Source: Aminivibrio pyruvatiphilus (GTDB taxonomy: Bacteria; Synergistota; Synergistia; Synergistales; Aminobacteriaceae). From it: a stretch of 64,000 nt of DNA. Under the pieces are notes generated by a model. That model searched no databases, had not been told where the DNA came from, and saw nothing but the letters and a program-made list of their open reading frames with translations. The DNA lies in NCBI RefSeq assembly GCF_004366815.1, contig NZ_SORI01000001.1, positions 1 through 64,000 of the forward strand, written 5' to 3'. A program made the translations under genes and the position numbers. Shown in pieces: positions 4,798 to 55,899 of the stretch (position 1 is the stretch's first letter; each line of letters opens with the position of its first letter).

Positions 4798-4831
4798 CCG
4801 GCGGGAGAGCGGGGAAGGAGGGGAAGGGATC

Positions 4832-5746: not shown

Positions 5747-5840
5747 AAATCCGGGCATTGTTTTTCATTTGGCAGCGGGGAGCGTTGCCATTGCTCGCTT
5801 GGGCCGTCGGCGCACATTGTCATCCGTGACAACTGCGCCT

Positions 5841-5864
5841 AAAACCGACATCCCTGTCGGTTTT
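5841..5864. terminator. Bidirectional intrinsic terminator after the cbiK operon
   Basis: A perfect inverted repeat AAAACCGACA-TCCC-TGTCGGTTTT. It separates the riboswitch operon from hemL, which therefore probably has its own promoter. Confidence 0.7.
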
Positions 5865-5946
5865 CCGGCCCGGGCGCTGCGCCTGGCAACACTCCCTCTG
5901 CCGTAAAATATACATGATGTTGGCAGAGAAAGAGAGGTTGATTGCT

Positions 5947-10589: not shown

Positions 10590-11080
10590 GGGAGGTTCTC
10601 CTTTTCTTCAGTCATGTCTTCGAGGCTTTGCCGGAGCAGATTCTTTAGGGCGGCCGACCCGGCGGGGTCGCCGCCTCCGCTTCCCGCGCCGACCACGAAC
10701 CCTTTCCACCGGAACTGGGCCGCCAGGGCCCAGGAACCGGATTCCGGGGCGCCGCAGCAGTTGAGCATGCATCCCGTACCCTCCGCCAGGGGAAGGACGT
10801 CAGCCGTCTCTTCCGGCGGCAGGGCCAGCAGGGCGAGGCGGTGCTCCGAAAAATCCCTCCGTTCCGCCGTCCGGCGCTCCCACCGGATGGATCCCTCCGC
10901 GGCGAGGGCCTGCAGTTCCGGTACCGCTTCAGGAGAGACGAGGTCCACGGAGGCTCCCCCGTCCAGGAGGGTGCGGATCTTCCGGAGTCCCACGGGGCCT
11001 CCTCCGACCGCGAGGATGGGGCCCGAGGCCGGTGAGAGGCAGATCATGAGGGAGAAGCTTACGGGCCGGGGGTCAGTCAT
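10586..11080 (-). CDS. Precorrin-2 dehydrogenase (Met8/CysG N-domain type)
   Basis: A 164-residue NAD-dependent dehydrogenase-like protein that would oxidise precorrin-2 to sirohydrochlorin, the substrate of CbiK. The Rossmann motif AVGGGPVGLRKIRTLLDGGA (about 24-43) and VDLVSPEA are seen. The protein is shorter than full CysG N-domains (about 200 or more) and ends soon after the NAD domain (GSAALKNLLRQSLEDM). It is therefore probably a dehydrogenase only, with chelation left to CbiK. It overlaps hemA by 8 nt. Confidence 0.82.
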   Translation of the reverse strand: MTDPRPVSFSLMICLSPASGPILAVGGGPVGLRKIRTLLDGGASVDLVSPEAVPELQALAAEGSIRWERRTAERRDFSEHRLALLALPPEETADVLPLAEGTGCMLNCCGAPESGSWALAAQFRWKGFVVGAGSGGGDPAGSAALKNLLRQSLEDMTEEKENLP

Positions 11081-12221
11081 CGCCGGGCTCCTCCATGTCG
11101 CCGGAGAGAATTTTCCAGAGCCTCCGGGCGTGGGGGTCCGATTCGGCGAAGGCGGGGGAGAGGAGGGCCTTCACCACGCTCCACCCCATGCGGCGGAGGG
11201 ATTCCCGGTCCGCGCCTGTCTTCCGGGCCGTGAGCTCCGTCCGTTCCTCCACGATGCGCTCAGCCCGGAGCAGGACGAGGCGCTTGTAGGTCTCCGCCGA
11301 GAGGGAGGTGAGTTCCGCGCAGACGGATCGGGCAGCCTCGGCCGCCTCGCTCTCGAGCCGGCGAAGCTTTGTGCGGTATTCGGCCGTAATCTTTGCCGCC
11401 TCCACGGCGAGATCGTCCATGGCCAGGAGGAACGGGGAGGCTGCTGCACTCCGCTCCACCTGGGGAGGGGAGCCGAGGTCGAAAATCCTCTGCCCCTCCC
11501 GCCTTTCGGCAAGAGAGAAGAGGGGTTCCGGGGCTCCCGTGCAGAAGAAGAGGGCGCCGAAGGCCGCCGCCTGCCCCCGCCATTCCTCCCAGGGAAGAAA
11601 GGACACCCCCAGGGAGTCCGCCAGGGCTTGCCCCCGCCCGGGGGAACGGTTGGTCACCGCCAGGGGAACGGCGAGCCCGGCGAGGACCCGGGCCGTTTCC
11701 TCCCCCATCTCCCCGGCTCCCACCACGAGGGAGGAAACGGAAGGGAAGGAAGGGTGATCCCGGAGCTTTTCCGCCATGAGCCGGGGCACGGAGGGTTCCC
11801 GGCCGGGGTGGTAGCAGGTCCGCAGCAGCTTCGCCATCCGGAGGCAGCCCTGGAAGAGGCGGTGGAGCCAGGGCCCGCAGAGGTCGCCCGCTCCCCCGTA
11901 GCTCTCCCGGACCTGCCCCACGATGGAGGACTCGCCGCAGGCCATACTCTCCAGGCCGAGGAGCACCCGGAGGAGGTGGAGCACCGCCTCCTCGCCGGAG
12001 AGGGTCCGGACCCGGGGGTGGAGTATCTCCTCCGGCACGGTGCCGCCCGGGGGCAGGCGGAGGTAGATTTCCGTCCGGTTGCAGGTGGATACGGGGACCG
12101 CCTCGAGGATCCGCCCGTCCTCCCTGAGCGCCGGGAGGGACAGCCATGCCCTTTTCGCCCCGTCCCGCTCGGCGGTGGAGGCGGCCGTGTAGTCCAGGGA
12201 GAGGCAGAGAAGACTCTTCAT
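11073..12221 (-). CDS. hemA: Glutamyl-tRNA reductase
   Basis: A 382-residue NADPH-dependent enzyme of the C5 pathway making glutamate-1-semialdehyde from glutamyl-tRNA. Seen are the catalytic cysteine region VPVSTCNRTEIYL, GESSIVGQVRES, the NADPH fold VVGAGEMGEETARVLAG and the AVTNRSPGRGQALADSLG block, with a C-terminal dimerisation helix region. The ATG overlaps the cbiGH stop (ATGA). Its place inside a B12-riboswitch operon means the committed step of all tetrapyrrole synthesis is under corrinoid control here. Confidence 0.94.
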   Translation of the reverse strand: MKSLLCLSLDYTAASTAERDGAKRAWLSLPALREDGRILEAVPVSTCNRTEIYLRLPPGGTVPEEILHPRVRTLSGEEAVLHLLRVLLGLESMACGESSIVGQVRESYGGAGDLCGPWLHRLFQGCLRMAKLLRTCYHPGREPSVPRLMAEKLRDHPSFPSVSSLVVGAGEMGEETARVLAGLAVPLAVTNRSPGRGQALADSLGVSFLPWEEWRGQAAAFGALFFCTGAPEPLFSLAERREGQRIFDLGSPPQVERSAAASPFLLAMDDLAVEAAKITAEYRTKLRRLESEAAEAARSVCAELTSLSAETYKRLVLLRAERIVEERTELTARKTGADRESLRRMGWSVVKALLSPAFAESDPHARRLWKILSGDMEEPGDD

Positions 12222-21801: not shown

Positions 21802-21847
21802 TCCGCCGGTGCTCCCGGTCCGGAACCTTTTTTCGGAGGTGTCCCCC

Positions 21848-24800
21848 ATGAAGCGATCCCTGTTTTCCGTCCTGATACTTCTGGTTGTTCTTTTCCTCCC
21901 GTGTGGGGGATACGCCGCCCCTTCCGTCCGGGAGAACGAATACTGGCTGAAGGTCAACCCCATCGGCAGGCCGCCGGCCCAGCCTTCCGAAGCATACAGC
22001 CTTCTCGAGTCGAGGCTCCGGAACGTGCTGGCCGGCGACCTTGACGGCATGGAGTTTTTCCGGTCCCTCGGCCGGGACGGCATGGCCATGAGAGATGTGA
22101 TGGCCTTCAAGGAGGAGTTCATCCGACTGCGGGGTGAAGAGCTGCGGAAGACGGAAGCCCTCTCCCCGGCGGATGCCCTTCCCGGAGCCCTTGAGGCATG
22201 GGAGCGGACCTTCGGGGAAGCGGAACGGTCCCTCATGGACGTGCGGCGGAAGGGCGTCGAGCGTGCCTTCGCCGAGGGGGTCCGGCGGTACAGGGACGCC
22301 CATCCGGATTTTCCCTATCTCGTCCGCATGGATGCCGGCGCGTCGTCCCGAGAATCCTACGGAGAGCTCCGGTTCGAGGGGGACATCGACATCTCCACCC
22401 TGGCGGCCCAGGCGGAGAACGCCGCCGCCCTCAGGGATTTTATCTCTTCCTCCATCCGGGACAGCTTCAACCTGGACATGACGTCCCTGGACGCCCTGGT
22501 TACCGCCCACCGGCAGGCCACCCTCGACGTGTACATCACCCAGCCCGCCGCGGACTGGGCGGAGATGGACTCCCTCAAAAGAGGACGGCTGCAGGAGATT
22601 GTACTGGAAAACGGGGAGGTGGGCTACCGGGATGTCTCCGACCCGGTGGAGCGGGTCTTCATCTTCGCCAATCTGAAGAACAACCTCCGGATGAGGGGCG
22701 GCGCCCCGGACGACCTCGCCCGCCTCATGGACGAGCCTCCCGACAGGATGACCCCGGACATGGAGCCCGCGGTAAGCCTTGAGATGCTTCGCCACATGAC
22801 CACCGACGCTCTGCAGGCCCGGCTTGCCTACCACGAGAAGATTCTCAAGCTGGCAAAGTACGTGGACCGGAGCGCCGCCATCGCCCAAGGTCCCCTCGGC
22901 GATACGGCCCTGGCTGCCTGGGCCCGGCAGGTGACCCTGGTGAAGCAGAACAGGGGGTTGGACGGCGGGCAGAGGCTGAAGCGCATTCTGGAGATCAGCG
23001 AACCGCTCCTCGGGGATCCCCGGGACTTCGCTGGCCTCGACCGGGCGATCCTCTCCCTCGGGGAGCGGGCTTCCGCCCTGATCCGGGACAACGTGTCCAA
23101 GGGCATTGACGCCCGGCTGAAGCTCATCGACGACGCACGGACCCCCGCGGAAAAGGACGGGGAGCGGAGAAAACTGCTCTCGGAGCTCGAGGAGACCTTC
23201 AAGGCCTACGTGGAGAAGGGAGTGGACTTTCCCCCGAAGGCCCACGAGACCATGATCGCCCTCGCCGACGCCCTGAAGGTGACGGTGCTCAACATTCCCG
23301 CGTCGGAGCTTGAGCGGATGAAGCGCTACCTGGATCTGGCCGCCGAAAAGCCCGGTTCCCTCGACCTGGCCCTCGGCATGGCGTGGCGCCTCTTCGAGGG
23401 AGCCTACACCACCGCCGACGGGGCGATCGACGCCTTCAACAACTGGTTTGACTACCTCGACAACCACACGGTGGCCCGTCTCCGGGCCATGAACCCGGAA
23501 GTGTTTCTTCCCGGCCCCGGGGGAAAGACCCGGGCTGTAACCATACCCATCGGCAGGATCAACGACCGGCTCAACGCGTCCATCCTCGGCGCCGCGGGGA
23601 ACTCCCTTCCCTTCAAGGCCGTCAACCTGGGCCAGGAGCTCTACGCCTACGTGAGCGGATTCCGGGAAGGGAAGGACATGTCCGAATCGGTGTCCAACGT
23701 GGCAACCCAGCTCTTCCGGTCCCGGGTTCCGGGAGGGGATATCGTTGAAGCCGTGGTCATGGAGAACTACACCAGGGCGGCCATCGGCGTGGTCTACCTT
23801 CTCTTCCCCACGCTCGCCGTCCCCGAGGCCCTCTACGGCATGGGAACCGCCGCCGCCGAGTGGTATGTGGGCGCATGGCAGCAGTGGCAGTACGACGAAA
23901 TGGTGGATGCACTGTACGAGGGAACGGCCTTCGAACCGACACGGGAGGGGACGTGGAGGGTGAAGTCCATAACGTACAGCCTTCCCGGCGGAGGAGCGGT
24001 CACCGTGGGGCGGGACGAGGCCTTTACCCTGCCGGAACTGGTGCCGAAGATCTCCAACATTCTCGTGCCCCAGGTGAGGACCCACCCGTCCATCGCCATG
24101 TACCACGAACTCCTGGCGCGGAAGGAGCTCTCCGACGGGCAGAGCGGCATCCCCGTCTGGCCCCGGAGATACCTGAACCTCAGCCTGTACGGGGAGCGGC
24201 TGTATGAGAAGTACGTTTCGGAGGTGAAAACGGTGACCAGGCAGTACTTCGCCGACGTCATCGCCGAGCTGGAAAAGCGGAAGGCCTTCGACCAGGGAAC
24301 GAACGAAAAGAAACTGCGGGAGATAGGTGAGGAACTGGGCTGCGGCGGCTCCCTTCTCGATAAGACCGGAAGCGGGCGGGAAGCCCAGGAGGCGGTTATC
24401 GCCGACTGGGAAGAGTGGCTGAAGGTCCATGGCGCCCTTATGGAGTTCCGGGAGCGGTGGAGCGCCTTTTTCATCCTGGTGCGGAAGCCCTCCTGCTCTC
24501 CCGAGTCGATCCGGATCGTCCTCGAAGAGGACCGGAAAGACCTCGGGGAGGCGAAAAAGGCCCTCCGGGAGGCGGCCGCCGCCGTGGAGGAGATTGTCGG
24601 CCGGAACGGGGCCGATGAAAAGACCCTGCAGCCCGCAGTCCGGACGAGGGCGGGGGCCCTGATCTATCCCTCCGGTACCCCGGAGCGGCGCCGGATGATC
24701 AGCGAATACAGGGAATATCTCGAATCCCTCCGCAGCAGGCAGACCCCTCCCGGCGTGCGGATTTCTGGTCCGGACACCGTGGGCGAGGGGATGGAAGAGT

Positions 24801-27800
24801 TTTTTACTGTCGTCCTGGACAGGGAGCTCCGGTCGGCCCGGTACGACTGGAAGTTCGCCTCCGGCGGTTACGGGGAGGCCCTTGAGGGGGACACGACGTC
24901 CCGCATCCGGTGGACTCCCTCGTCCCCGGGAAAGAAGGTCCTGGAAGTGCATGTCCTCGCCGATCTTCCCGGAGCCGACTGGGTACGGGCCGTTCACCCG
25001 GTGACCGTCCTCTCCGCAGCCGATACGCCCCGTCCGCGGCTGCGGCTGACCTGCCCCGTGGATTCCTTCCGGGCGGGGGAAATTGTTCCCCTCACGGCGG
25101 AGACGGAGGAGTTCGGTCTTGGAGGAGAAGGGTTCGAATGGTACATCTGGTTCGCGGACGGGAGGCGGATCGCCTCCACGGCGGAACGGACCATATCCTT
25201 CGACGGAGTGGGCTACGAGGGGCGGACCGTGGAGATCCGGGTGGAGGCACGGACGAAGAACCGTTTCGTCTCGGCATCCGCCCTTTCCCTGGAGGTTCTG
25301 CCTCCCGGAGGAGCCGACGGAGATCTCCGGGTCCTCCTCGAACCTGATATCACCGAGGCCGCGGCCGGAACACCCCTCCGGTTTTCGGGCACCGCCTTCC
25401 CGAGAAAGGGGGGAGGAACCCTGAAATACCAGTGGTCCGTCAACGGGGAATTCGCCGGGGACGGGGACGCCCTTCATTTCGACACGGCTCCCTGGGAGGG
25501 AAAGACGGCGGAGATCGTCTTCTACGCCGCCCAGGTCCTTGACGGGACGGTGCTCTTCGAAGGATCGGCGTCCCGGAAGATCTCGGTCGTCAAGGAGGTC
25601 TCGCTGTCCGTGGCGCTGGAACCCCACCCGTCGAAGGTGGGCGATACCGAAACGATCCGGCTCGCCGTGAAGGATCCCCTGGACGGCGTGGAGTATGAAT
25701 GGCACGAGTGGGACAGCGTCTCCCGGAGATGGAGCTCCGGAGCCGCCGTGGCGGGGAGGCGGCTGGTGAAGTCCGCTCGCGGCCTGGCGGGCCAGTCTCT
25801 CAGGTTTCGGGTGACCGCCCGGGACGGAAAGGGGCGGACGGCGGCCGCCGAGTCGGGGCTCATCGAAATCACGGAGCCCTCCTGGCCCGGTCCCGAAGAG
25901 GAGGAACCGGAGGCGGACACGGAGAAGCCCGTTTCGGACCCGGAAAAAAAGGACGGCGGGAAGCCTGCCGTTCCAGGAGACGCCGAAGAAGGACCGGAAA
26001 AGGATGGAGCGGCTGAAGACGACGGAACGCTGAGGCTCGAACTTCCGGCGACGGTCATGGAGGGAGAGATCGTGACCGTGAAGGCTCTTCTGCCCCCCGG
26101 CATGGCCGAACAGGCCGCCGACTCCTTCCGGTGGAGCAGCGACCCCAGCCGGGGACGGCGGTCTTTCGTCATCCTCGGCGAGACCGTTGGAGGAACCGAC
26201 GGCTTCGGCGGCGGCGGGGGAGAACGGACAGCCCGTCCCGAGACGGAGATCCAGTTCACCCCCCATCAGAACACCCGGGGCGTGAGGGGCAGCGTGGGCG
26301 TCACCGTCTACCGGAAGCTGCGGGGGAACCAGAAGGGAGCCCCCATGGAATCTCTCGCCGAAGCGTACAGGTCCGTGGAGGTCCTTCCCATGGGCTGTTC
26401 CGTGGCAGCTTCCGCGTCGTGGGCGGGAGGCCCCAACGAAGAGGGGGTGCTTCTCACCCTTGACGAGGATACGTCCCGGGGAAGCGTCCGGGGTGAGTTC
26501 CTCCTGCAGATCGGCACATGGAGGGGCAGGACCATCGAATCGGTGAAGAAGCAGGTGGAGACCAACAACCAGTACGGAATCCTCGAGAGGGTCGTCGTGG
26601 ACGGCTACGAGGGCTATCTCGCCGTGCAGGGCCCGTCGTACAACATCAAGCGATCCCCTGACGGCCGGTTCGTCACCGGCGGCCGGGTGGTGCTGAACGG
26701 CCTGGTGATCAGGGGAGAGGCAGCCCTCGACTTCCGTTCGGAGATCAAATTCTCTCTCGCTGAGGACAACATCCCCGAGGACGACCCCGAGACGGCCCGG
26801 TTCGCCCGGGGGCTCATGTCGCAGCTCCGGTCCATCCTGGCGAGTATCCGGGTGGTCCCTGACCCGAAGCGGACCACGGGACCGGCGGACGCAGCCGGGG
26901 AAGAGAAAAAGGACGCGGCCGTGACGCTCCGGAGGGTGAGTCCTCCGGCAGGCCCCGTGGTCGCCGGAACGCCCGTGGAATTCCTGGCGTCGGCGGAGGG
27001 AGCGAAGAAAGTGGAGATGTTCTTCCGGTTCGAGCCGTCCACGGAGGTCTCCTTTTCCCCTCCGGAATCGGAGGAGGGGCGGACGAAAGCCGTCTTTTCC
27101 GAACCCGGCACGGTTCGCGTCTGGGCCGTTGCCCTGGACGGGAACGGCACCCTCGGCGAATCGGAACAGGTCGAAATAGAAGTGGTGGGGCCTGAACTGA
27201 CCGTCACGGCCATGCCCCCGAAGCCGAAGGTAGGGGAGGAAGTGAAAGCGAAGGCCGGGGCGAAGCCCGGACTGCCGGAAGGGGCCTTCGTCGTGTGGAC
27301 CCTGGAGGGAAAGGCGTCCCGCAGCGGGACGAAAGCCGCGGATTCCACGGAATATTCCTTCCTCCCCCGGGAGGCGGGGAAATACGTCCTGAAAGCGGAG
27401 GCCAGAAGTCCGGGAGGGGAGACTCTGGCGGAGAAAACGCTGGCCGTGGAGGTGGCGGGGTACGAAGTGGCCGTGACGGTTCTCGGCCCGGCAGGACCCC
27501 GACCGCAGGAATGGGTGCAGGGGCAGGGCCTCCGCACCGTGGAAAAGGACACCTTTCTCCGGGACGAGCACGTCCGGATGAAGGCGGAAGTGAAGGACGC
27601 CGATGCGCCGAAGGATCTCCGGTGGAAGTGGATTCCGGGGCCGGAGACGTCCCTGGCGTCTTCGGGCATCGGGCAGGAGGCGACTCTGTACGGCACCGCC
27701 GCCGGAACGGCATCGGCCCGGGTGGAGGTGCGGGACACGGAGGACCTTCTTCTGGGCGCGGCTTCCGTCTCTTTCCCCGTGATGGAGCTGCCCCCCGAGC

Positions 27801-29944
27801 TGAAGGTTCCTCCCCTGAAGGGGGCCGTCAGGGCGGACCCCGAGCCCGGGACGGTGAACGGGAGAATCACCCTCTCCGCTTCCGCGGAAGGGGGCAAGCC
27901 CCCCTATACCTTCCGGTGGGGAGGTCCGGTTACCGGGTCGGGGGATATTCACACCTTCATTCCCGACCGGCCGGGGACGTTCCGGTTCACCCTGCTGGTC
28001 CTGGATTCGGCGGGGCGGCAGGTCACGGTGAACCGGGATGTGGAAGTGAAGCCCTTCACCGTAGCCATATCCGGCATCCCCCAACGGGCGATTCTCGGGG
28101 AAACGGTCTCCTGCCGGGTGGACTACCCTCTCTCCCCTCCGGGATCGAAGGTGAACCGGTCACCGGTGCCGCGGATCCGCCTCTCCGGCAACCCGGAAGT
28201 GCAGTGGAACCCCGCGGAGGGGACGGGGCCCGGGTTCAGCGGCCGGGCCGTCCGGCCGGGCGCCGCGGACATCCGGGCCGAAGTGCGGGGGGCCGGAGGA
28301 GTGGTCCTCGGCGTCTCCGATCCCGTGCGGATGACGGTGGGCGTGCCGGACCTTTCCCTGGTGCTTCCGGAATACGTGACCCCGGGCGACGGTTTTCGTG
28401 CTGCCGTAGAACTCCCGCCGGGAGTGAACGCCGACGAAGTGTTCGATTTTGACTGGAAGGCGGCCTTCCCCGCCGCCCGGCAGTACGGCCGTGAAGGAGG
28501 AAGCGCCCTTATCGGTCCCGTGAGCGGGCTCGATCCCGTCCAGGTGTCGGTCGCCGTCCGGGACAAGGGAGGAAAAACGGCGGCGGAGCTTTCGGGGACC
28601 GTCCCCGTGCGGCCCCTGGACCTCAGCGTCAGGGTCCGGGCCTTCTCCGAGAGAGGGCAGATCGTGCTGCCCGACGGACGGGTGGACTATCCTCCCCGGG
28701 AGGAGTGGATCGAAGGGCAGACGGCCACGTTCAAGGCCGCTGTCTCCCCCGCGAAAGCTGTGACCTGGGAATGGTCCGTGTACGGGCCGGGAAAAATCAG
28801 CCTCGCGTCCTGGGACACCGCCTCGGTGATCCTGAACGGAACTGGTTCACTGACCGTCACTGTCGTGGCGAAGGTGGGGGGAAAGGAAGCGGGTCGGGCG
28901 GAAGTGACCCTTCCCGTGACCGTGGCAAAGGACAAAATCCAGGCGGCGAGGGAGTACCAGGCCGGACGGAACGAGTGGAACGCCGCCCGCCGTGACCGGG
29001 CGGTCATGGCCATGGAAAGGGCGGCTTCACTGGATCCAGGCAATCCCGCCATCGGGCGGGAACTGGCGCGGATGAAGGCCGAGGCGGAAAAGTCCCGGGC
29101 CGAAGACGCCCGGAAGCGGGCCGTGGAGGTCTGGAACAAGGCCGCGGAACTCCAGAAGAAGGAGAAGTATGAAGAGGCCCTTGAACAATACCGGGAGGGC
29201 CTGAAAATCAACGACGACAAAGCAGTCAGGGATCACGTGAAGAAGCTCGAGGACTTCATTGCCGACCGGAAGCGCAGGCAGGAACAGGCTTCGGCGGACG
29301 CGAGGGCCCGGGCGGAGGCAATCTGGCGCCGGGCGGCGGAGCTGCAGAAGGGAAAACGTTATGAAGAGGCCCTGGAGAAATACCGGGAAGGCCTGGCCAT
29401 TTCACCGGATCCGGTGGTGGAGGAGCACGTCCGGAAGCTGGAGGACTACATCGCCAGGATGAAGAAGCAGTCCGGGACACAACAGCCGCAGCCGAAAACC
29501 CCTCAGCAGGTGCAGCCGAAACAGGTCCCGGCGCCTGACCAGAAGCCGGCAGACAAGGGGGCGGGAAAGCTGCCCGCAGGCTGGAAATCCGTGACCGTCG
29601 GGAACGTTTCCTTCGGCATCCCCTCCTCATGGAACGGGAAGACCATGAAGGAGCATGACGTGGAACAGCTTCACGTCTACTGGCAGGGGAGCTTCGACAA
29701 TCCGGTCCACGGGGTCTCCGGAGGGGTGACGAAGAAGTACGGGGAGGCGAAGAAGGAGCTCCGCGGTGCCCGGACGGTCTCCCTCGGAGGGGCGAAGGTG
29801 CTCCGGGCGGACGAGGACGGAGCGGTGAACCTTCTCTTCCCGCCCCTTGGCGGCAACAGGGGCGTGGCCCTCGTCCTCTTCCGCGGAAAGGGCGGAAAAC
29901 AGGAAACCCTGGAAGCCATACTGAAGACTGTCACGGTAAAGTGA
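21848..29944 (+). CDS. Giant secreted multi-Ig-like protein with C-terminal TPR-like repeats
   Basis: A 2698-residue protein of unknown function. GGAGGT precedes the ATG at 21848; residues 1-23 are a signal peptide. About 30-950 is mostly helical and charged. It includes a hydrophobic stretch (about 643-663) and a short GDIDIS (about 178-183) with TLDVYI (about 224-229) pattern that faintly resembles a nucleotidyltransferase core. From about 965 there are many Ig/PKD-like beta modules. They are interrupted by an acidic Pro/Glu linker (about 1345-1394) and a mixed domain (about 1515-1668, GEFLLQIGTWRGRTIESVKK). About 2364-2540 has two TPR-like units (KKEKYEEALEQYREGLKI and KGKRYEEALEKYREGLAI). 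A Gln/Pro linker follows, then a final domain (about 2575-2698, SFGIPSSWNGKTMKEHDV). Predicted exported, possibly surface-bound. Confidence 0.8.
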   Translation: MKRSLFSVLILLVVLFLPCGGYAAPSVRENEYWLKVNPIGRPPAQPSEAYSLLESRLRNVLAGDLDGMEFFRSLGRDGMAMRDVMAFKEEFIRLRGEELRKTEALSPADALPGALEAWERTFGEAERSLMDVRRKGVERAFAEGVRRYRDAHPDFPYLVRMDAGASSRESYGELRFEGDIDISTLAAQAENAAALRDFISSSIRDSFNLDMTSLDALVTAHRQATLDVYITQPAADWAEMDSLKRGRLQEIVLENGEVGYRDVSDPVERVFIFANLKNNLRMRGGAPDDLARLMDEPPDRMTPDMEPAVSLEMLRHMTTDALQARLAYHEKILKLAKYVDRSAAIAQGPLGDTALAAWARQVTLVKQNRGLDGGQRLKRILEISEPLLGDPRDFAGLDRAILSLGERASALIRDNVSKGIDARLKLIDDARTPAEKDGERRKLLSELEETFKAYVEKGVDFPPKAHETMIALADALKVTVLNIPASELERMKRYLDLAAEKPGSLDLALGMAWRLFEGAYTTADGAIDAFNNWFDYLDNHTVARLRAMNPEVFLPGPGGKTRAVTIPIGRINDRLNASILGAAGNSLPFKAVNLGQELYAYVSGFREGKDMSESVSNVATQLFRSRVPGGDIVEAVVMENYTRAAIGVVYLLFPTLAVPEALYGMGTAAAEWYVGAWQQWQYDEMVDALYEGTAFEPTREGTWRVKSITYSLPGGGAVTVGRDEAFTLPELVPKISNILVPQVRTHPSIAMYHELLARKELSDGQSGIPVWPRRYLNLSLYGERLYEKYVSEVKTVTRQYFADVIAELEKRKAFDQGTNEKKLREIGEELGCGGSLLDKTGSGREAQEAVIADWEEWLKVHGALMEFRERWSAFFILVRKPSCSPESIRIVLEEDRKDLGEAKKALREAAAAVEEIVGRNGADEKTLQPAVRTRAGALIYPSGTPERRRMISEYREYLESLRSRQTPPGVRISGPDTVGEGMEEFFTVVLDRELRSARYDWKFASGGYGEALEGDTTSRIRWTPSSPGKKVLEVHVLADLPGADWVRAVHPVTVLSAADTPRPRLRLTCPVDSFRAGEIVPLTAETEEFGLGGEGFEWYIWFADGRRIASTAERTISFDGVGYEGRTVEIRVEARTKNRFVSASALSLEVLPPGGADGDLRVLLEPDITEAAAGTPLRFSGTAFPRKGGGTLKYQWSVNGEFAGDGDALHFDTAPWEGKTAEIVFYAAQVLDGTVLFEGSASRKISVVKEVSLSVALEPHPSKVGDTETIRLAVKDPLDGVEYEWHEWDSVSRRWSSGAAVAGRRLVKSARGLAGQSLRFRVTARDGKGRTAAAESGLIEITEPSWPGPEEEEPEADTEKPVSDPEKKDGGKPAVPGDAEEGPEKDGAAEDDGTLRLELPATVMEGEIVTVKALLPPGMAEQAADSFRWSSDPSRGRRSFVILGETVGGTDGFGGGGGERTARPETEIQFTPHQNTRGVRGSVGVTVYRKLRGNQKGAPMESLAEAYRSVEVLPMGCSVAASASWAGGPNEEGVLLTLDEDTSRGSVRGEFLLQIGTWRGRTIESVKKQVETNNQYGILERVVVDGYEGYLAVQGPSYNIKRSPDGRFVTGGRVVLNGLVIRGEAALDFRSEIKFSLAEDNIPEDDPETARFARGLMSQLRSILASIRVVPDPKRTTGPADAAGEEKKDAAVTLRRVSPPAGPVVAGTPVEFLASAEGAKKVEMFFRFEPSTEVSFSPPESEEGRTKAVFSEPGTVRVWAVALDGNGTLGESEQVEIEVVGPELTVTAMPPKPKVGEEVKAKAGAKPGLPEGAFVVWTLEGKASRSGTKAADSTEYSFLPREAGKYVLKAEARSPGGETLAEKTLAVEVAGYEVAVTVLGPAGPRPQEWVQGQGLRTVEKDTFLRDEHVRMKAEVKDADAPKDLRWKWIPGPETSLASSGIGQEATLYGTAAGTASARVEVRDTEDLLLGAASVSFPVMELPPELKVPPLKGAVRADPEPGTVNGRITLSASAEGGKPPYTFRWGGPVTGSGDIHTFIPDRPGTFRFTLLVLDSAGRQVTVNRDVEVKPFTVAISGIPQRAILGETVSCRVDYPLSPPGSKVNRSPVPRIRLSGNPEVQWNPAEGTGPGFSGRAVRPGAADIRAEVRGAGGVVLGVSDPVRMTVGVPDLSLVLPEYVTPGDGFRAAVELPPGVNADEVFDFDWKAAFPAARQYGREGGSALIGPVSGLDPVQVSVAVRDKGGKTAAELSGTVPVRPLDLSVRVRAFSERGQIVLPDGRVDYPPREEWIEGQTATFKAAVSPAKAVTWEWSVYGPGKISLASWDTASVILNGTGSLTVTVVAKVGGKEAGRAEVTLPVTVAKDKIQAAREYQAGRNEWNAARRDRAVMAMERAASLDPGNPAIGRELARMKAEAEKSRAEDARKRAVEVWNKAAELQKKEKYEEALEQYREGLKINDDKAVRDHVKKLEDFIADRKRRQEQASADARARAEAIWRRAAELQKGKRYEEALEKYREGLAISPDPVVEEHVRKLEDYIARMKKQSGTQQPQPKTPQQVQPKQVPAPDQKPADKGAGKLPAGWKSVTVGNVSFGIPSSWNGKTMKEHDVEQLHVYWQGSFDNPVHGVSGGVTKKYGEAKKELRGARTVSLGGAKVLRADEDGAVNLLFPPLGGNRGVALVLFRGKGGKQETLEAILKTVTVK

Positions 29945-48448: not shown

Positions 48449-49564
48449 GTGCGACCCGTTCACGTTATTTATGTCAGTGCCGGAAACGGTCACAGGATGG
48501 CGGCGAGAGCCATCAGGGAATCCCTGGACCAGCGCATGGTTCCCAACGTGGTCATGGACCTGCTCGATTTCTCGAGCGACCTCTTCAAATGGTCCTACAG
48601 CGATGTCTACGCCTTCGTGAGCGAACATTCCCACCTGGCCTGCAGGATCATGTACGACCTCACCGACAAGAACCGGGAGGAGAGCGCCGCCCTCCGGCTT
48701 TTCGAAAAGATCTCCACCGAGAACGTGAAAAAATTCATGCGCTACATCGCCGAGAACGAACCCCGGAAATGCATCTGCACCCACTACTTCCCTCTGAACG
48801 TCCTCTCCCGCATGAAGGAAGCGGGGCTGTACAGCGGTCAAATCTACACGGTGATCACCGATTTCGGCCTCCGCCGCATGTGGGTGAAGGACCACGTGGA
48901 CAGGTACTTCATCTCCGGCGACCGGGTTCTCCGGGGACTCCTGGCCCTCGGCGTCCCCAGGGAGAAGATCTCCATGACGGGGATTCCCGTCTCCCGGAAG
49001 TTCGCCTCCCTGAAGCGGGAGGGACGAAACTTCTCGAAGAAGCGCCTTTCTTTCCTCTTTGTGGCCAGCAGCATCCCGAACATCCTTGCTCTGGACATCC
49101 TGGCGGCCCTTTCGAGGTCCGGCCACCCCATCGACGTGACCGTGGTGACCGGACGGAACAAGGATCTCCTTGCGGACCTCGAGAACGTCACCGCTGGAGG
49201 CGGTCTTTCCCTGAAGGTCAGGGGCTTCGTGGACAACCTGGAGGAGCTCATGGCCCGGGCGTCGGTGCTGATCACCAAGCCCGGCGGCCTGACGGTGAGC
49301 GAGGCGCTCTGTGCGGGCGTGCCCATGATCCTCGTCAATCCCATCCCGAAACAGGAGACCAACAATTCCGCCTATCTCCAGGAGAAGGGGGCCGGTATTC
49401 TCGCCAGGACCGCCGGGGACGTGGAGCGGATCGTCGATCGCTTTTTCGCCGACCGGTCCGTTCTAGCCGCCATGGAAAAGGCCGCCTCTTCCATCGCCTT
49501 TCCCGGCGCCGCTGATGCCGTGGCGTCCCTGATCGCCGGCGGAGAGGGGAGGGACGGGCGATGA
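48449..49564 (+). CDS. Processive diacylglycerol glucosyltransferase-like GT28 protein
   Basis: A 371-residue glycosyltransferase of the MGDG-synthase/MurG superfamily. The N-terminal half has VHVIYVSAGNGHRMAARAI, and the C-terminal GT28 half has ITKPGGLTVSEALCAGVPMI and PIPKQETNN, the nucleotide-sugar binding region. It would add a hexose to diacylglycerol, making membrane glycolipid at the cytoplasmic face; a lipid-linked alternative acceptor is possible. A GTG start follows AGGGGGGA. The end overlaps a c-di-GMP protein gene (ATGA), so the two are translationally coupled. Confidence 0.85.
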   Translation: MRPVHVIYVSAGNGHRMAARAIRESLDQRMVPNVVMDLLDFSSDLFKWSYSDVYAFVSEHSHLACRIMYDLTDKNREESAALRLFEKISTENVKKFMRYIAENEPRKCICTHYFPLNVLSRMKEAGLYSGQIYTVITDFGLRRMWVKDHVDRYFISGDRVLRGLLALGVPREKISMTGIPVSRKFASLKREGRNFSKKRLSFLFVASSIPNILALDILAALSRSGHPIDVTVVTGRNKDLLADLENVTAGGGLSLKVRGFVDNLEELMARASVLITKPGGLTVSEALCAGVPMILVNPIPKQETNNSAYLQEKGAGILARTAGDVERIVDRFFADRSVLAAMEKAASSIAFPGAADAVASLIAGGEGRDGR

Positions 49565-51342
49565 AGGAAACGGGAGGAACGGCTCCCCTGAAGGGAAATG
49601 CTTTTGCCGAAAGGTTCGGTGAGCTCTTCGGGTGCGGCGAGGGGACCGAGAAAGTGCGGCGGGCCCTGCAGATCATTTCCACCGTGTTTTCCAGCACGGT
49701 GGAAGGGATCGTGGTCACCGATCCCACGGGCATCATCCGCATGGTGAACCCTGCCTTTTCCTCCATCACGGGGTACAGCGCCGAAGAGGCGGTGGGAAGA
49801 AATCCCCGGATCCTCAAGTCGGACCGGCACCCTCCGAAGTTCTACGAAGACTTCTGGAAGACCCTGATCAACGAGGGGAAGTGGGAGGGAGAGATCTGGA
49901 ACCGGAGGAAGAGCGGCGAAGTCTACCCCGAGTGGCTCTGCTGCTCGGCCGTCCATGATGAGAACGGGAACGTCACCGACTACATCGCCGTCTTCAACGA
50001 CCTGTCGGAGGTTCATTTCAAGGATGCGCAGATCGAGCTCCGCTCCAACTTCGACCAGCTTACCGGCCTTGCGAGCAGGACCGTGTTCTACTCCCGCCTG
50101 GAAAGTGAGCTGGAGCGGCAGGGCCGGGACGGAAGGCGCCTTGCCCTCCTGGTGCTGGACATCAACCGCTTCAAGAACATCAACGATTCCCTCGGACATT
50201 TCGCAGGGGACGACGTGCTGCAGCAGGTGGGCGCGAGGCTGTCCCGCCACCTCGGCGGCAGGGACAGGGCGTCCCGGATCGGCGGCGACGACTTTCACAT
50301 CCTCATCCCCGAGGCCCGCTCCGTGGAGGAGATTGCCTCCGGGGCGGAGAAAATACTCTCCCTGCTGAACGATCCCGTGGATGCGGCGGGGAACAGGATC
50401 TTTCTCAGCGCCTCCCTCGGCATCGCCGTCTTTCCCGATGACGGCAGGACGGCGGAGACGCTGCTCAAAAAAGCCGACATGGCCATGCACAAGGCCAAGG
50501 AACTCGGCATAAGCAATTTCCGGTTCTTCACCGGCGAACTGGGAGAGCAGGCATCGTCCAGGCTCCTTCTGGAGAACTCGCTGAGGCGGGGTCTCGAAAG
50601 AGACGAGTTCCGCCTGGTCTACCAGCCGAAGTATGACCTCCGGGAGGACCGGGTGTCCGGCATGGAGGCCCTGCTCCGCTGGCATGCCCCCGACCGGGTG
50701 ATTCCCCCCTGGGAATTCATCCCCCTCGCTGAGGAGACGGGGCTGATCCTGCCCCTGGGCGAATGGGTCTTCCGGGAGGTCTGCCGCCAGGTTTCCCTGT
50801 GGACGGACGAAGGGTATCCTCCCCCCGAGGTGGCGGTGAACCTCTCGGCCCGGCAGTTCCACCAGGACGGGCTCGTCTCCGTCCTGAAGGCGGCCATGGA
50901 TGAATATTCCGTGTCCCCTTCACGGATAGGCATCGAGATCACCGAGTCGGGGATCATGGAGGACCTGGTGGATTCGGTGGCCATTCTCTCGGCGGTCAAG
51001 GACCTGGGGATGACGGTCTACGTGGACGACTTCGGCACGGGGTATTCCTCCCTGAACTATCTCAAGCGGCTGCCCATCGACGTGCTGAAGATCGACAAGT
51101 CCTTCGTGGAGGGGGTCCTGGAGGACAGGAACGACGCCGCCATCACCCGGGCGGTCATCGGCCTCGGACGATCTCTCGGCATGGCCGTGGTGGCCGAGGG
51201 GGTGGAGACGAGAGAGCAGCTTGATTTCCTCAGGCAGAACGGATGTGATGGAATCCAGGGCTACCTGCTGAGTCCTCCTCTTCCGCCCGGGGAAACCCTC
51301 CGGTTCAGAAAAGCGGGGCATACCCCTTTGTTTCCCGCATAG
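49561..51342 (+). CDS. PAS-GGDEF-EAL cyclic-di-GMP protein, probable phosphodiesterase
   Basis: A 593-residue cytoplasmic protein. A PAS domain (about 40-160; STVEGIVVTDPTGIIRMVNPAF) is followed by GGDEF (about 165-325) and EAL (about 335-585). The GGDEF signature is GGDDF (241-245): the catalytic glutamate is aspartate, so cyclase activity is doubtful. The EAL motifs are intact: EALLRW at 369, DDFGTGYSS at about 489, KIDKSFV and AEGVET. It is therefore most likely a c-di-GMP phosphodiesterase regulated by PAS and perhaps GTP. It overlaps the glycolipid glycosyltransferase gene. Confidence 0.93.
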   Translation: MKETGGTAPLKGNAFAERFGELFGCGEGTEKVRRALQIISTVFSSTVEGIVVTDPTGIIRMVNPAFSSITGYSAEEAVGRNPRILKSDRHPPKFYEDFWKTLINEGKWEGEIWNRRKSGEVYPEWLCCSAVHDENGNVTDYIAVFNDLSEVHFKDAQIELRSNFDQLTGLASRTVFYSRLESELERQGRDGRRLALLVLDINRFKNINDSLGHFAGDDVLQQVGARLSRHLGGRDRASRIGGDDFHILIPEARSVEEIASGAEKILSLLNDPVDAAGNRIFLSASLGIAVFPDDGRTAETLLKKADMAMHKAKELGISNFRFFTGELGEQASSRLLLENSLRRGLERDEFRLVYQPKYDLREDRVSGMEALLRWHAPDRVIPPWEFIPLAEETGLILPLGEWVFREVCRQVSLWTDEGYPPPEVAVNLSARQFHQDGLVSVLKAAMDEYSVSPSRIGIEITESGIMEDLVDSVAILSAVKDLGMTVYVDDFGTGYSSLNYLKRLPIDVLKIDKSFVEGVLEDRNDAAITRAVIGLGRSLGMAVVAEGVETREQLDFLRQNGCDGIQGYLLSPPLPPGETLRFRKAGHTPLFPA

Positions 51343-51355
51343 GTCGGGATATAAT
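51328..51355 (+). promoter_or_regulatory. Promoter of the diiron-sensor/receptor/HD-GYP operon
   Basis: A perfect TATAAT (51350-51355) 16 nt after TTGTTT (51328-51333). It overlaps the end of the upstream EAL gene and starts a 94-nt leader. Confidence 0.5.
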
Positions 51356-51448
51356 CAAAGGAAAATATTCCGGACGCCGCTTTTTGCCCGGTACCAAAGC
51401 ATCCGGGAATGAACCTAATACGGTCATTTCGGGAAGGAGTTGGAGTAT

Positions 51449-52222
51449 ATGCAGCATGTGAGTTCCCTTTCCCTGTACGATCAGGGCGATCACCGGTTCA
51501 TCATGCTCGGATGGGAGGAGCAGGAGGAAGAGGTGGCCGTCCAGACGAACCAGTACGTCATCTCGTCGGGAGGAGAAGTGGTCCTTCTCGATCCGGGCGG
51601 AGCCCATGTCTTTCCCAGGGTCCTCGCCAACGTGGCCGAACTCTTCGAGCTGAAAAACATCAGGCATATTTTCTACTCCCACCAGGATCCCGACGTGTCG
51701 TCGGGGATCACCCTCTGGCTCTCCATGGCCGAGAAGGCCTCGGTGCACATTTCGGGTCTGTGGGTGCGGTTTCTTCCCCATTTCGGAATCTACGACGTGA
51801 AGCGCATCGCCCCCATTCCGGACAAGGGCGAGACAGTCACCCTGGGCAACGGGAAGAAGCTTGTCATGATCCCGTCCCACTTTCTTCACTCCACCGGATG
51901 CTTCTCCCTCTACGACCCTGCGTCGAAGATTCTCTTCACCGGGGACATCGGCGCGGCCATCTTCCCCCGGGGCGGCCGGTATCCCGTGACGGAGGACCTG
52001 GATTCCCACCTGAAGTACATGGAGGGCTTCCACAGGAGGTACATGGCGTCCAACGCCGCATGCCGCCGGTGGGTCAAAATGGTGTCCGCCCTCGACGTGG
52101 AGCACATCGCCCCCCAGCACGGCGCTTTCATCAAGGGCCGGCAGAACGTGAAAAAATTCCTTTCGTGGTTCGAGAATCTCTCCTGCGGGGTGGACGTTCT
52201 CGACGAAATCTACGGCCGCTGA
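51449..52222 (+). CDS. ODP-like diiron metallo-beta-lactamase-fold sensor
   Basis: A 257-residue protein of the flavodiiron/ODP family lacking a flavodoxin domain. Metal ligands expected from flavodiiron proteins (H79, E81, D83, H84, H146, D165, H226) are seen as H78, D80, D82 (SHQDPDVSSG), V83 in place of histidine, H147 (SHFLHS), D166 (FTGDIG) and H224 (APQHGA). Loss of the fourth N-terminal histidine is a mark of ODP sensors, which bind oxygen rather than reduce it. ATG 51449 has AAGGAG 10 nt upstream; an in-frame TTG at 51440 is too close. It is followed at 25 nt by a soluble chemoreceptor, its probable partner. Confidence 0.82.
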   Translation: MQHVSSLSLYDQGDHRFIMLGWEEQEEEVAVQTNQYVISSGGEVVLLDPGGAHVFPRVLANVAELFELKNIRHIFYSHQDPDVSSGITLWLSMAEKASVHISGLWVRFLPHFGIYDVKRIAPIPDKGETVTLGNGKKLVMIPSHFLHSTGCFSLYDPASKILFTGDIGAAIFPRGGRYPVTEDLDSHLKYMEGFHRRYMASNAACRRWVKMVSALDVEHIAPQHGAFIKGRQNVKKFLSWFENLSCGVDVLDEIYGR

Positions 52223-52247
52223 CGGCCCCGGCCGGGAGGACGACGGA

Positions 52248-53090
52248 ATGGAGCGCAAGTATTCGGAAGTGATCCACCAGCTCGGCAGCGCTTATTTTGC
52301 CAACACCCTCATGAACTCCTTCATGGCCCAGCTTGACGAGGTGCTGGTGAACCGCGTCCGTTCAGTGGAGGAGGAGATAGCGGAGACGTCGGAGCGGTTC
52401 GTGCAGCTCAGCCGCGTTCTCAGCGATCTTCAGGCCGAGTTTGACAGGAGCGGTCGGGAGACCAGGGAAACGGTGGAACAGATCAACCGGATGAACGGCG
52501 ACCTCGTAACAGAGCTTCAGCGTTCCGGCACCGACCTCGAAGGCATGAGCGAGAACGTGTCCCGGACCGTGGACGCCACCACCGGCACTCTCGAGTCCTT
52601 CCTGGAGATCGAAAAAATGTCGAAGGAAATCCAGCGTATCGCCAAGCAGACCAATCTTCTTGCGCTGAACGCTTCCATTGAGGCGGCCCGGGCGGGGGAA
52701 CACGGAAGGGGATTCGCCATCGTGGCGAAGAACGTCCAGGAACTTGCCGCCGAAACAAAGGCGGCCTCCGAGTCCATCGGAGCCAAGGTGGGGGAGATCT
52801 CCGGCTCGGTGGAGCGGGCCATGGAGGACATCCGGGGGATCAGCGACATGTTTGACATGATCCGCCGGTCCCTGACAACCTTCACCAGGTTCCTCGACAC
52901 CAACAAGGCCTTCATGGAGAGGATGGAGCGGACCATGGCCGACGCCGGGGAGAAGGTCAACAGGAGTTCCGGCGAAATGGAGAGCTCCGTGGAGGTTCTG
53001 GGTGATGCCTCCAGGAAATTCGGATCCATGGCGGCCACCATCTCGGCCATCGTCCTGGCCCAGAAGAATCTCAAGAAAATCAGGCTCTGA
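52248..53090 (+). CDS. Soluble chemoreceptor-like signalling protein
   Basis: A 280-residue MCP-like protein with no transmembrane segment. A short N-terminal helical part (SEVIHQLGSAYFANTLMNSF) is followed by a coiled coil with the signalling tip [20 protein letters not shown] (about 129-148). It has no HAMP and a much shorter coil than the membrane receptors in the window. It presumably receives its signal from the diiron protein encoded just before and acts on CheA or on the HD-GYP protein after it. Confidence 0.9.
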   Translation: MERKYSEVIHQLGSAYFANTLMNSFMAQLDEVLVNRVRSVEEEIAETSERFVQLSRVLSDLQAEFDRSGRETRETVEQINRMNGDLVTELQRSGTDLEGMSENVSRTVDATTGTLESFLEIEKMSKEIQRIAKQTNLLALNASIEAARAGEHGRGFAIVAKNVQELAAETKAASESIGAKVGEISGSVERAMEDIRGISDMFDMIRRSLTTFTRFLDTNKAFMERMERTMADAGEKVNRSSGEMESSVEVLGDASRKFGSMAATISAIVLAQKNLKKIRL

Positions 53091-53091
53091 C

Positions 53092-54315
53092 ATGGAAAAA
53101 CCGCCCTCGGCAGAACCGCAGAACAGATACGGGGAAACCGGCGGGGAGAACGTGGTCGATGTTCCCCTGGACGACCTTTGCCATTACCGGGGAAAGGTGG
53201 CCGAGGACATCATTTCGGAGGACGGGGCTCTGCTCCTTCCCAGGGGCAGCGATATCCCGCTGATGCTCCGGACCATGCCCGGAATAACGAAGACTCTCCG
53301 GCGCTGGAACAGGGAGTTTATCCCCGTCCAGGTCTCTTCCGACATCACGGAGGAAGAGTTCGAGGCCGTCCTCCGGGCCATCGAGCCGAAAACCCGCATG
53401 CTTGACCCGGGACTGGCACGAAGGGCCATCGACCAGGTCGAGGAAGTCTACTCCAGGATTTCGGAGAACGGGCATTCCCGGGAGGGAATGGAAACCCTCG
53501 AAAAAGAGGCGGACAGGCTGGCCCGGGACGTGATGCGGTCCCCCCAGATTCTCCTCTGTCTCGGCAAGGTGAAGGATTCCGATGAGTACACCTTCATCCA
53601 TTCTCTCAACGTGGCCCTTCTCTCTGGATATCTCGCCTCCATACTTCATCCCGGGGACGAAGAACTCGTGAAAACCATGACCTTCGGCGGACTGCTCCAC
53701 GACCTGGGGAAGGCGAAGGTCCCCCAGGAAATTCTCAACAAGCCGGGCCGTCTGACCTCCGAGGAGTTCGAGATAATGAAGACCCATTCCATCCACGGGA
53801 TGGTCTCCGCCGTGGCGTCGGGGGTGAGCGACCGGCGGCTGCTCTCGGTGGTGAGGAGCCACCACGAGCGTTGGGGAGGGGACGGGTACCCCGACGGACT
53901 GAGGGAGAACCGGATTTCCATCCACGCCAGAATTGCCGCCGTGGCCGACGTGTTCGACGCCCTCACGGCAAAACGGGTGTACAAGGATCCCATGAGGAGC
54001 AGGGAAGCGGTCTCCATGATTCTCGAATCTTCCGGAAGCAGCTTTGACGGGGCCATCGTCCGGGCCCTTCTTCTGTCGGTGGGGCTCTATCCCCCGGGAA
54101 CGGTGGTGGAACTCTCCGATTACAGCGTAGGTGTTGTCACCGGTGTCCGGAACAAAGACCTGCTCCGCCCACAGGTCTGCCTCTCGGTGGATTCCAGGGG
54201 GCGCCGGCCGGAGTCGCCTGCCATCATCGATCTTTCCCTCGGGACGGACCTCTTTATCCGTCGGTCCCTAAACGACATGGGAAAGGGCGTTGTCTACGGA
54301 CGGACCGAATCCTGA
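53092..54315 (+). CDS. HD-GYP domain protein, predicted c-di-GMP phosphodiesterase
   Basis: A 407-residue protein. An N-terminal region of unknown fold (about 1-140) is followed by an HD-GYP domain (about 150-340) with HSLNVALLSG, LLHDLGKAKVP (H203/D204), HHERWGGDGYPDGL (H257/H258 and the GYP motif) and ADVFDALTAKRVYK. All signature residues are present. The ATG is one nucleotide after the receptor stop; upstream in-frame sequence lies inside that gene. It probably hydrolyses c-di-GMP in response to the diiron sensor/receptor pair. Confidence 0.93.
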   Translation: MEKPPSAEPQNRYGETGGENVVDVPLDDLCHYRGKVAEDIISEDGALLLPRGSDIPLMLRTMPGITKTLRRWNREFIPVQVSSDITEEEFEAVLRAIEPKTRMLDPGLARRAIDQVEEVYSRISENGHSREGMETLEKEADRLARDVMRSPQILLCLGKVKDSDEYTFIHSLNVALLSGYLASILHPGDEELVKTMTFGGLLHDLGKAKVPQEILNKPGRLTSEEFEIMKTHSIHGMVSAVASGVSDRRLLSVVRSHHERWGGDGYPDGLRENRISIHARIAAVADVFDALTAKRVYKDPMRSREAVSMILESSGSSFDGAIVRALLLSVGLYPPGTVVELSDYSVGVVTGVRNKDLLRPQVCLSVDSRGRRPESPAIIDLSLGTDLFIRRSLNDMGKGVVYGRTES

Positions 54316-54318
54316 GGC

Positions 54319-55899
54319 TCACCTCAGGGAATCTTCTATTTCCCCTATTTTTTCCTCGAATCCGTAGATGGTGGGATCAATGTCGTCCACCACGGCGTTC
54401 AGCTCCTTCATGGACCGGAAGGCGTATCCTTTCGGCAGGCGGTTAGCGTACCGCTTTACCTTCAGCAGGGCCTGGAGGTAGTTTCGCTCGAAGGGGAGAA
54501 TGACCTGGGCCGCCATGATGGCGCCGGGGCTCGTCTCCGAAAAGAAGAGATAGGCCATCTCCAGGTTCTCCTCGATGTCCATCTCGTCGTACCAGAGAGC
54601 CGCCAGCAGTTTCCGGAACTTCTTCTTCTCGTGTCCACCCACCATCTTCCGCACCGCCCGGTCGATCCTGTTCATCCCTGACCGCAGGATGTGCTCCGTG
54701 AGATACGGATCTCCCTTCGGCCAGGAGAATCCGGCGATATACTCCGCTTCCGCCTCGGGGAGCACCTGCTTCCGAAGCAGCCGCCCGAAGGAAGGCCGGA
54801 GGGAAACCGACGCCGGTTCCGGCGGGGCGTCCACCAGCTCCCGGAAAATATCCCCCGTGGAAAAGCCCCTTCGCTCGAAGGGTGAGTTGAGAAGCCAGGT
54901 CACGTAGCCGGGATCGAAGAGCCCCTTCCGTCCCGCCCTGCCTGCCATCTGGGAGAATTCGTTCTTCGAGACGGGCATGTCGGAATGGTAGTGGACGAGC
55001 TGGGCGAAGACCACAGTCTCGGCCGGAAGGTTCACTCCCAGGGCGAGGGCGTTGGTGCCGCAGACCACGTCGAGGATCCTCTCCCGGAAGGCCCGTTCCA
55101 CCAGCAGCTTTTCCTTGGGCAGCATCCCCCCGTGGTAGATGCCGACCCCTGTGAAGAGGGGCGGCTGGATTTTCGGCACCTCGAGAATGGACGCGATCTC
55201 CTGGAGACGGTCCCGCTGCCCCGCCGAAATTTTCTTCCGGCTTCTGGAGGCCTGAAAGGCCAGCTCCACAGCTCCCTTCTGTGAGAACAGAAAGACCAGG
55301 GCATCCTTCAGCCCGTCGATTCGTGCCGGCTTTGCGGGGGTGAAGATCAGCTCCGTCTCCCGGCGGGTGTTTTCGTGCAGGAAGAATGTCCTCCCCGTTA
55401 CACCGCTGAGGTAACCGGCCACGGAGGAAGCGCCCCCGAGGGTTGCCGACATGACGAGGACGGCGGTGGTGGGATCCGTGTCCCGGATGCCGTCGATATA
55501 GGCCCTTGCCCGGTCGGGATCGTCAAAGATATAGTGGAATTCGTCCACGATGAGTTTCTGGCCCGGGACGAAGGCGTATTTCAGGGAATAGATTTCCTGG
55601 GTGCAGCAGATAATGGAGGCTCCCTCGTTTTTCTTGAAGTCCCCCGTCTCGATGCCCACGTCGAACCCCATCTTCCTGAGGTCGAGGTACCGTTCGTTGC
55701 TCAGTGCCTTGATCGGGGCGGTGAAGATGATCCGCCCGCCTTCAGGGTAGACCGGGAACCCCTCCTCGTCGAGGATGCCGGCCCAGAGGTAGGCAACAAG
55801 CGTCTTTCCCGATCCCGTGGGGGCGGAGAGCACGGCGTTCTTTCCTCGGATGGCCCTATGGGCCCTGAGCTGCCACGGATAGTATGAAAAAGTGTCCAG
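54319..55899 (-). CDS. Ski2-like superfamily 2 helicase with apparent CTG start
   Basis: A 526-residue DEAD/DExH helicase. Motif I is SAPTGSGKT, Ia TAPIKALSNERY, II VDEFHYIFDD (DEFH), III VMSATLGG, V GTNALALGVNLP and VI QMAGRAGRKG. The in-frame region before the first GTG (55833) encodes a convincing Q-motif segment (TFSYYPWQLRAHRAIRGKNA), and no ATG/GTG/TTG occurs there. A CTG at 55899-55897 has AAGGAG 8 nt upstream, so CTG is proposed as the start. An upstream in-frame TGA excludes a longer form. It probably acts in RNA or DNA processing. It ends 3 nt from the convergent HD-GYP gene. Confidence 0.85.
   Translation of the reverse strand: MDTFSYYPWQLRAHRAIRGKNAVLSAPTGSGKTLVAYLWAGILDEEGFPVYPEGGRIIFTAPIKALSNERYLDLRKMGFDVGIETGDFKKNEGASIICCTQEIYSLKYAFVPGQKLIVDEFHYIFDDPDRARAYIDGIRDTDPTTAVLVMSATLGGASSVAGYLSGVTGRTFFLHENTRRETELIFTPAKPARIDGLKDALVFLFSQKGAVELAFQASRSRKKISAGQRDRLQEIASILEVPKIQPPLFTGVGIYHGGMLPKEKLLVERAFRERILDVVCGTNALALGVNLPAETVVFAQLVHYHSDMPVSKNEFSQMAGRAGRKGLFDPGYVTWLLNSPFERRGFSTGDIFRELVDAPPEPASVSLRPSFGRLLRKQVLPEAEAEYIAGFSWPKGDPYLTEHILRSGMNRIDRAVRKMVGGHEKKKFRKLLAALWYDEMDIEENLEMAYLFFSETSPGAIMAAQVILPFERNYLQALLKVKRYANRLPKGYAFRSMKELNAVVDDIDPTIYGFEEKIGEIEDSLR

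Follow-up and report, generated by a model that had tools for sequence, protein, structure and literature searches.

An oxygen-binding diiron protein and its soluble chemoreceptor in Aminivibrio pyruvatiphilus, with an HD-GYP gene as a loose partner

The gene at 51449-52222 of the window, the 64,000-nucleotide stretch of Aminivibrio pyruvatiphilus DNA that we analyzed, encodes what is by its sequence a true oxygen-binding diiron protein (ODP), and it is followed on the same strand by genes for a soluble chemoreceptor (MCP) and an HD-GYP protein. We consider it reasonably probable that the ODP and the receptor form a cytoplasmic O2/Fe(II) chemotaxis module and that the HD-GYP protein is a co-expressed companion with no direct wire to it.

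Results

The 257-residue product of the first gene (+ strand) matches the Pfam family PF19583, "ODP family beta lactamase," over model positions 1-194 of 194 with 254 bits (E = 1.3e-75); the curated cut-off is 27.2 bits, and the model alone also picks up flavodiiron proteins. The closest solved structures are both solved ODPs, namely 6qrq (64% identity, 2e-111) and 6qnm (51% identity, 7e-83), which comparison with named genomes identifies as the Thermotogota type and the Treponema type, the latter sharing 96% identity with the ODP of T. putidum. Among named genome records, the nearest ODP is that of a Synergistaceae MAG, at 95% identity. An earlier note on this DNA had read the flavodiiron-type ligands H78, D80, D82, H147, D166, and H224 with V83 in place of the usual histidine and had proposed kinship to the ODP sensors of Treponema. 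We found all seven residues as read and unchanged throughout a set of 81 ODPs that covers at least five phyla, among them Synergistota, Thermotogota, Aquificota, Nitrospirota, and Spirochaetota. The kinship is confirmed by the Pfam score, the identity to 6qnm, and the shared valine. D80 is altered as well, since flavodiiron proteins carry a glutamate at that position.

The genome also encodes a separate flavodiiron protein of 446 residues (contig C7), which has a flavodoxin domain and the motif HTEQDH and serves as an internal control. If the ODP were itself an O2-removing enzyme rather than a sensor, its fold family and ligand frame would look as they do, since both are those of flavodiiron proteins. 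However, it has no flavodoxin domain, the 81 ODPs read HxDxDV and not HxExDH, and ODPs are strictly paired with a receptor and with chemotaxis genes, as laid out below. We regard an enzymatic role as very improbable and rejected it on the motif, the missing flavodoxin domain, and the presence of the contig C7 protein.

The second gene (52248-53090, + strand) encodes a 280-residue MCP (MCPsignal, 3e-25). It had been described as a receptor with neither a membrane nor a sensor domain, and we agree: the maximum 19-residue hydropathy of 0.81 indicates that there is no membrane segment, and a Pfam search found no sensor domain. Its best solved relative is 3g67, a soluble receptor (34% over 208 residues), and the partner receptors of ODPs elsewhere are mostly 260-280 residues long from the profile start, none of them with a membrane helix. 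A cross-phylum search of the receptor for a conserved ODP-docking segment found none, conservation being limited to the hairpin tip, the 27-residue CheA/CheW contact region that we placed at 52647-52727 (+ strand) by its identity to other receptor tips. The tip is identical at 24/27 positions to the commonest tip among the membrane receptors of the genome, compared to 19/27 for the receptor of a second cluster of Wsp-like type. This difference suggests that the soluble receptor belongs to the flagellar array.

The genome encodes three flagellins and eight CheW-domain proteins, and its flagellar operon contains CheB, CheA, CheC, CheD, a sigma factor, and a PilZ/YcgR protein. The PilZ/YcgR gene (480-1157 of locus L174, contig C1) stands at the head of the CheB-CheA-CheC-CheD operon, where its product would be at hand as a c-di-GMP effector acting on the motor. 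The second chemosensory cluster (2806-11809 of locus L171, contig C13) comprises CheW, CheR-TPR, CheW, a membrane MCP, CheA with a receiver, and CheB, followed by a REC-PAS-GGDEF protein; it resembles the Wsp system controlling c-di-GMP.

A soluble MCP gene lies directly 3' of the ODP gene in practically all of the 80 ODP loci of our collection, the exceptions being L039, which has membrane MCPs upstream instead, and L087, which ends at a contig edge. Within Synergistota, 144 of 188 genomes have CheW, and the 40 genomes with an ODP all belong to this group (P ~5e-6, kinship ignored). Together, the near-universal linkage and the co-occurrence with CheW indicate that ODP and MCP are one module tied to chemotaxis. 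The ODP-TDE2496 pair of T. denticola was reportedly described by Muok et al. in 2019 as an oxygen/Fe(II) chemotaxis sensor. In that organism, the ODP interacts with its receptors (PMC6978683) and is genetically coupled to TDE2496, which is without membrane or sensing modules and modulates CheA (PMC7666581). The earlier note had proposed a complete pathway from oxygen or iron sensing to both chemotaxis and c-di-GMP turnover, and its first half stands: homology to a characterized ODP-receptor pair, linkage, and co-occurrence make it well supported that O2 or iron sensing feeds chemotaxis via the soluble receptor. The chemotaxis arm is a further case, of the standard kind, of the established ODP-receptor module.

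The ODP, MCP, and HD-GYP reading frames lie where they had been placed. All three are on the + strand; 25 nt separate ODP from MCP, and a single nucleotide separates MCP from HD-GYP if the latter starts at ATG 53092. The ODP start codon, ATG 51449, is preceded nine bases 5' by the ribosome binding site AAGGAG (51434-51439, + strand), where GGAAGGAGTTG is conserved in five genomes. Ending 106 nt 5' of the ODP gene is a gene absent from the earlier note, which encodes a 593-residue PAS-GGDEF-EAL protein (49561-51342, + strand; Pfam EAL 7e-76, GGDEF 3e-43, PAS 1e-17). Its GGDEF signature reads GGDDF, its EAL catalytic residues are complete, and the protein is probably a phosphodiesterase. A promoter-like site, TTGTTT-16 nt-TATAAT(CA), is found at 51328-51355 (+ strand); across five genomes of two genera, the TTGTTT box (51328) is nearly invariant and GG.TATAATCA (51350) is invariant, the rest of the gap having diverged. 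Since a scan with a stricter promoter consensus found nothing, conservation is what identifies this site. At the other end, a terminator-like hairpin with an 8-pair stem and a T-rich tail (54310-54329, + strand) covers the HD-GYP stop codon, and the gene 3' of HD-GYP is convergent. The conserved promoter-like site and the hairpin suggest that ODP-MCP-HD-GYP may be one transcription unit, separate from GGDEF-EAL.

Overlapping the start of the GGDEF-EAL gene is a gene for an MGDG-synthase/MurG-like glycosyltransferase (GT; 48449-49564), which belongs to the conserved neighborhood. Elsewhere in the window, a very large open reading frame (21809-29944; 2711 residues, with PKD-like and TPR-like matches) lies opposite a 2163-residue open frame and probably encodes a repetitive cell-surface protein.

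The third gene (53092-54315, + strand) encodes a protein of 407 residues from ATG 53092; its start is either this codon, which is common to the nearest relative (L014) and missing in L015 and L018, or GTG 53152. The enzyme had been called intact, and it retains an HD_5 match (1.4e-30), the two-metal ligands, and the GYP motif, with phosphodiesterase activity predicted from its family. In the numbering of 4mcw, it keeps the equivalents of H189, H212, D213, H250, H276, H277, and D305, while the third-metal ligand E185 is a tyrosine, which sets it outside the trinuclear subgroup. Two-metal HD-GYP proteins are a known subgroup and may favor other substrates, such as pGpG. A Pfam search recognized no receiver, docking, or other input domain in the protein, whose N- and C-terminal regions have no Pfam match, and an AlphaFold2 model built on five sequences has a mean pLDDT of 52, too low to be of use for comparing folds.

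Relatives of this HD-GYP occur in 87 of the 188 Synergistota genomes, compared to 40 with an ODP, and on these counts we rejected the HD-GYP gene as a fixed member of the ODP operon. In a tree, the clade of the window HD-GYP contains linked as well as unlinked members, and the HD-GYPs that neighbor ODP in Nitrospirota and spirochaetes fall in other clades. The HD-GYP gene is a loose partner of ODP-MCP.

The order larA-GT-GGDEF/EAL-ODP-MCP-HD-helicase-Na/Pi transporter is found in the window and at L014, L018, and L180, and in part at L015-L017 and L143, while GGDEF-EAL adjoins ODP in all window-type genomes and in two of another genus. Searching for the three-gene order in other anaerobes, as the earlier note had proposed, gave a divided result: the unit is kept in four genera of the family and held across genera at 60% HD-GYP identity, but it is broken in genomes G040, G041, G103, and G030. 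At the same locus, the HD-GYP gene directly follows GGDEF/EAL in G040 and G041 and directly follows the GT gene in G103; in all three, the helicase and transporter are in place and the HD-GYP catalytic residues are retained. In G040, where CheW and flagellin persist, the gap 5' of HD-GYP reads STIVAARKNLKDLRV-stop, aligning with the receptor C-terminus SAIVLAQKNLKNLRL-stop. This MCP scar of 15 codons, which lies in the gap between GGDEF-EAL and HD-GYP at L124 (gap at ~4860-4975, reverse strand), has an alignment score of 48, compared to a maximum of 30 in 2000 mononucleotide shuffles, and it is direct evidence that ODP-MCP was lost and HD-GYP kept. G030 presents the reverse case, with GGDEF/EAL-ODP-MCP and no HD-GYP at the locus, where TRAP-type transporter genes (L177, 2789-5627) occupy its place. 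Since HD-GYP is kept without ODP-MCP and ODP-MCP without HD-GYP, the history of the locus does not bear out a dependence of HD-GYP on the ODP or the receptor. As a natural control, the G040 deletion scar speaks against obligate coupling.

Such losses would also be expected if the HD-GYP and GGDEF-EAL genes were plain neighbors, with ODP-MCP between them by chance and the units acting separately. ODP-MCP is separable from both genes, outside the ODP genera the nearest orthologues of the HD-GYP gene stand unlinked, and the 20 HD-GYP genes of the genome make chance proximity less unlikely. However, HD-GYP starts one base past the MCP stop codon when read from ATG 53092, the unit has been kept across genera at 60% HD-GYP identity, and, as described next, unrelated lineages show an enrichment of c-di-GMP enzymes beside their ODP operons. 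We judge this reading unlikely.

Genes for c-di-GMP enzymes stand beside other ODP operons in several arrangements. A GGDEF-HD-GYP gene lies ahead of ODP-MCP at L022 and L034, as does an HD-GYP gene in spirochaetes (L049 and L072); the order ODP-MCP-(MCP)-HD-GYP is found at L036, L038, L040, and L211; a PAS/GAF-GGDEF-EAL gene comes after ODP-MCP in about ten genomes of the Nitrospirota search; and ODP is followed directly by GGDEF-EAL or HD-GYP, with no MCP, at L227, L228, and L229. Two of the last group, L229 (4725-6793) and L227 (6017-8900), are candidates for ODP control of c-di-GMP enzymes. When ODPs were clustered at 70% identity, a c-di-GMP gene was present in the ODP chain of 9/30 clusters, or 8/29 without L179 (a truncated copy of the window type), compared to about 1.45 expected from the density of c-di-GMP genes elsewhere in the same loci. 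The enrichment (P ~1e-5 with two slots per cluster and 0.001 with four) is to be read with a rough background, four loci entered by hand, some genomes counted twice within a cluster, and the general tendency of signaling genes to cluster. Most ODP operons have no c-di-GMP enzyme. ODPs have been described in operons with various signal-transduction genes and also fused to signaling domains (PMC7319448), and since that work already states the link between ODPs and signaling operons, we do not claim the recurrence theme as new. The recurrence of unrelated c-di-GMP enzymes beside ODP operons makes a functional association plausible, and co-expression is a likelier basis for it than direct signaling.

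The same evidence bears on whether the ODP signals both to CheA via the receptor and to HD-GYP, directly or via the receptor, so that swimming and c-di-GMP are set together. In its favor, the three genes lie in one putative unit and stay together in four genera of the family, separate-clade HD-GYPs stand beside ODP-MCP in Synergistota, Nitrospirota, and Spirochaetota, the MCP-less ODPs abut HD-GYP or GGDEF-EAL, the enrichment exceeds background, and hemerythrin fusions provide cases of HD-GYP enzymes under diiron control (PMC9388753). However, no receiver or docking domain was recognized in the HD-GYP protein, whose orthologues outlive ODP-MCP with their catalytic residues in G040, G041, and G103; G030 has ODP-MCP without HD-GYP; and most ODP operons do without a c-di-GMP enzyme. 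Neither the domains nor the locus comparison gave any hint that ODP or CheA acts on HD-GYP directly. We consider joint control quite unlikely, and the missing receiver and the two kinds of broken locus do not bear out the c-di-GMP half of the pathway that had been proposed. A plausible view of the c-di-GMP arm is that of a companion with loose coupling, for which co-expression is more probable than direct control.

Discussion

In the account that we favor, a chemotaxis module with a co-expressed HD-GYP, the ODP diiron center would change state with O2 or Fe(II), the ODP would dock on the soluble receptor, and the receptor would join the flagellar array through its conserved tip, modulating CheA and thereby swimming, all by analogy with the T. 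denticola pair. The HD-GYP gene would share the ODP promoter-terminator unit, so that the level of the phosphodiesterase, and not its activity, would follow the operon; the gene might be tied to the operon by position alone. By lowering c-di-GMP, HD-GYP may relieve the brake that the PilZ/YcgR protein of the flagellar-chemotaxis operon would exert. The upstream GGDEF-EAL would be a member of the neighborhood, probably on another transcript. Our statements on the metal content and O2 binding of the ODP, on its docking to the receptor, and on the phosphodiesterase activity of HD-GYP are inferences.

Like the T. denticola ODP-TDE2496 system, the window has an orthologous ODP (51% identical to 6qnm) with the same ligands, including the valine, and a soluble receptor next to it. 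It differs in having HD-GYP after and PAS-GGDEF-EAL before the pair, whereas the T. denticola (L092) and T. putidum (L071) loci lack any c-di-GMP enzyme in the ODP chain. The Thermotogota ODP 6qrq and receptor 3g67 (Tm14) are likewise related to the window proteins, at the identities given above, but in the Thermotogota ODP loci of our collection, the chain lacks both HD-GYP and GGDEF genes. Hemerythrin sensors are similar in that they sense O2 or redox state with a non-haem diiron center and are linked to chemotaxis or to HD-GYP/GGDEF enzymes; they use the hemerythrin fold and keep sensor and output in one chain, whereas the window has separate genes and a sensor of the metallo-beta-lactamase fold. 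The stand-alone HD-GYP phosphodiesterases 4mcw (PmGH) and Bd1817 share the HD and GYP motifs and the two-metal ligands with the window protein, which differs in its tyrosine in place of the third-metal ligand E185 and in termini without a Pfam match.

The recurring c-di-GMP neighbors could reflect direct ODP control, plainest at the MCP-less L227 and L229. A broader version, in which the ODP is a plug-in O2/Fe(II) sensor recruited repeatedly in unrelated bacteria to control c-di-GMP enzymes (HD-GYP, GGDEF-EAL, and GGDEF-HD-GYP) directly as well as soluble receptors, with the window as a dual-output operon, strikes us as rather unlikely. The ODP is one of the few known oxygen sensors of strict anaerobes. 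With an ODP module between c-di-GMP enzymes, a theme found in unrelated loci, it becomes testable whether one diiron sensor serves both steering by O2 and the choice between swimming and settling.
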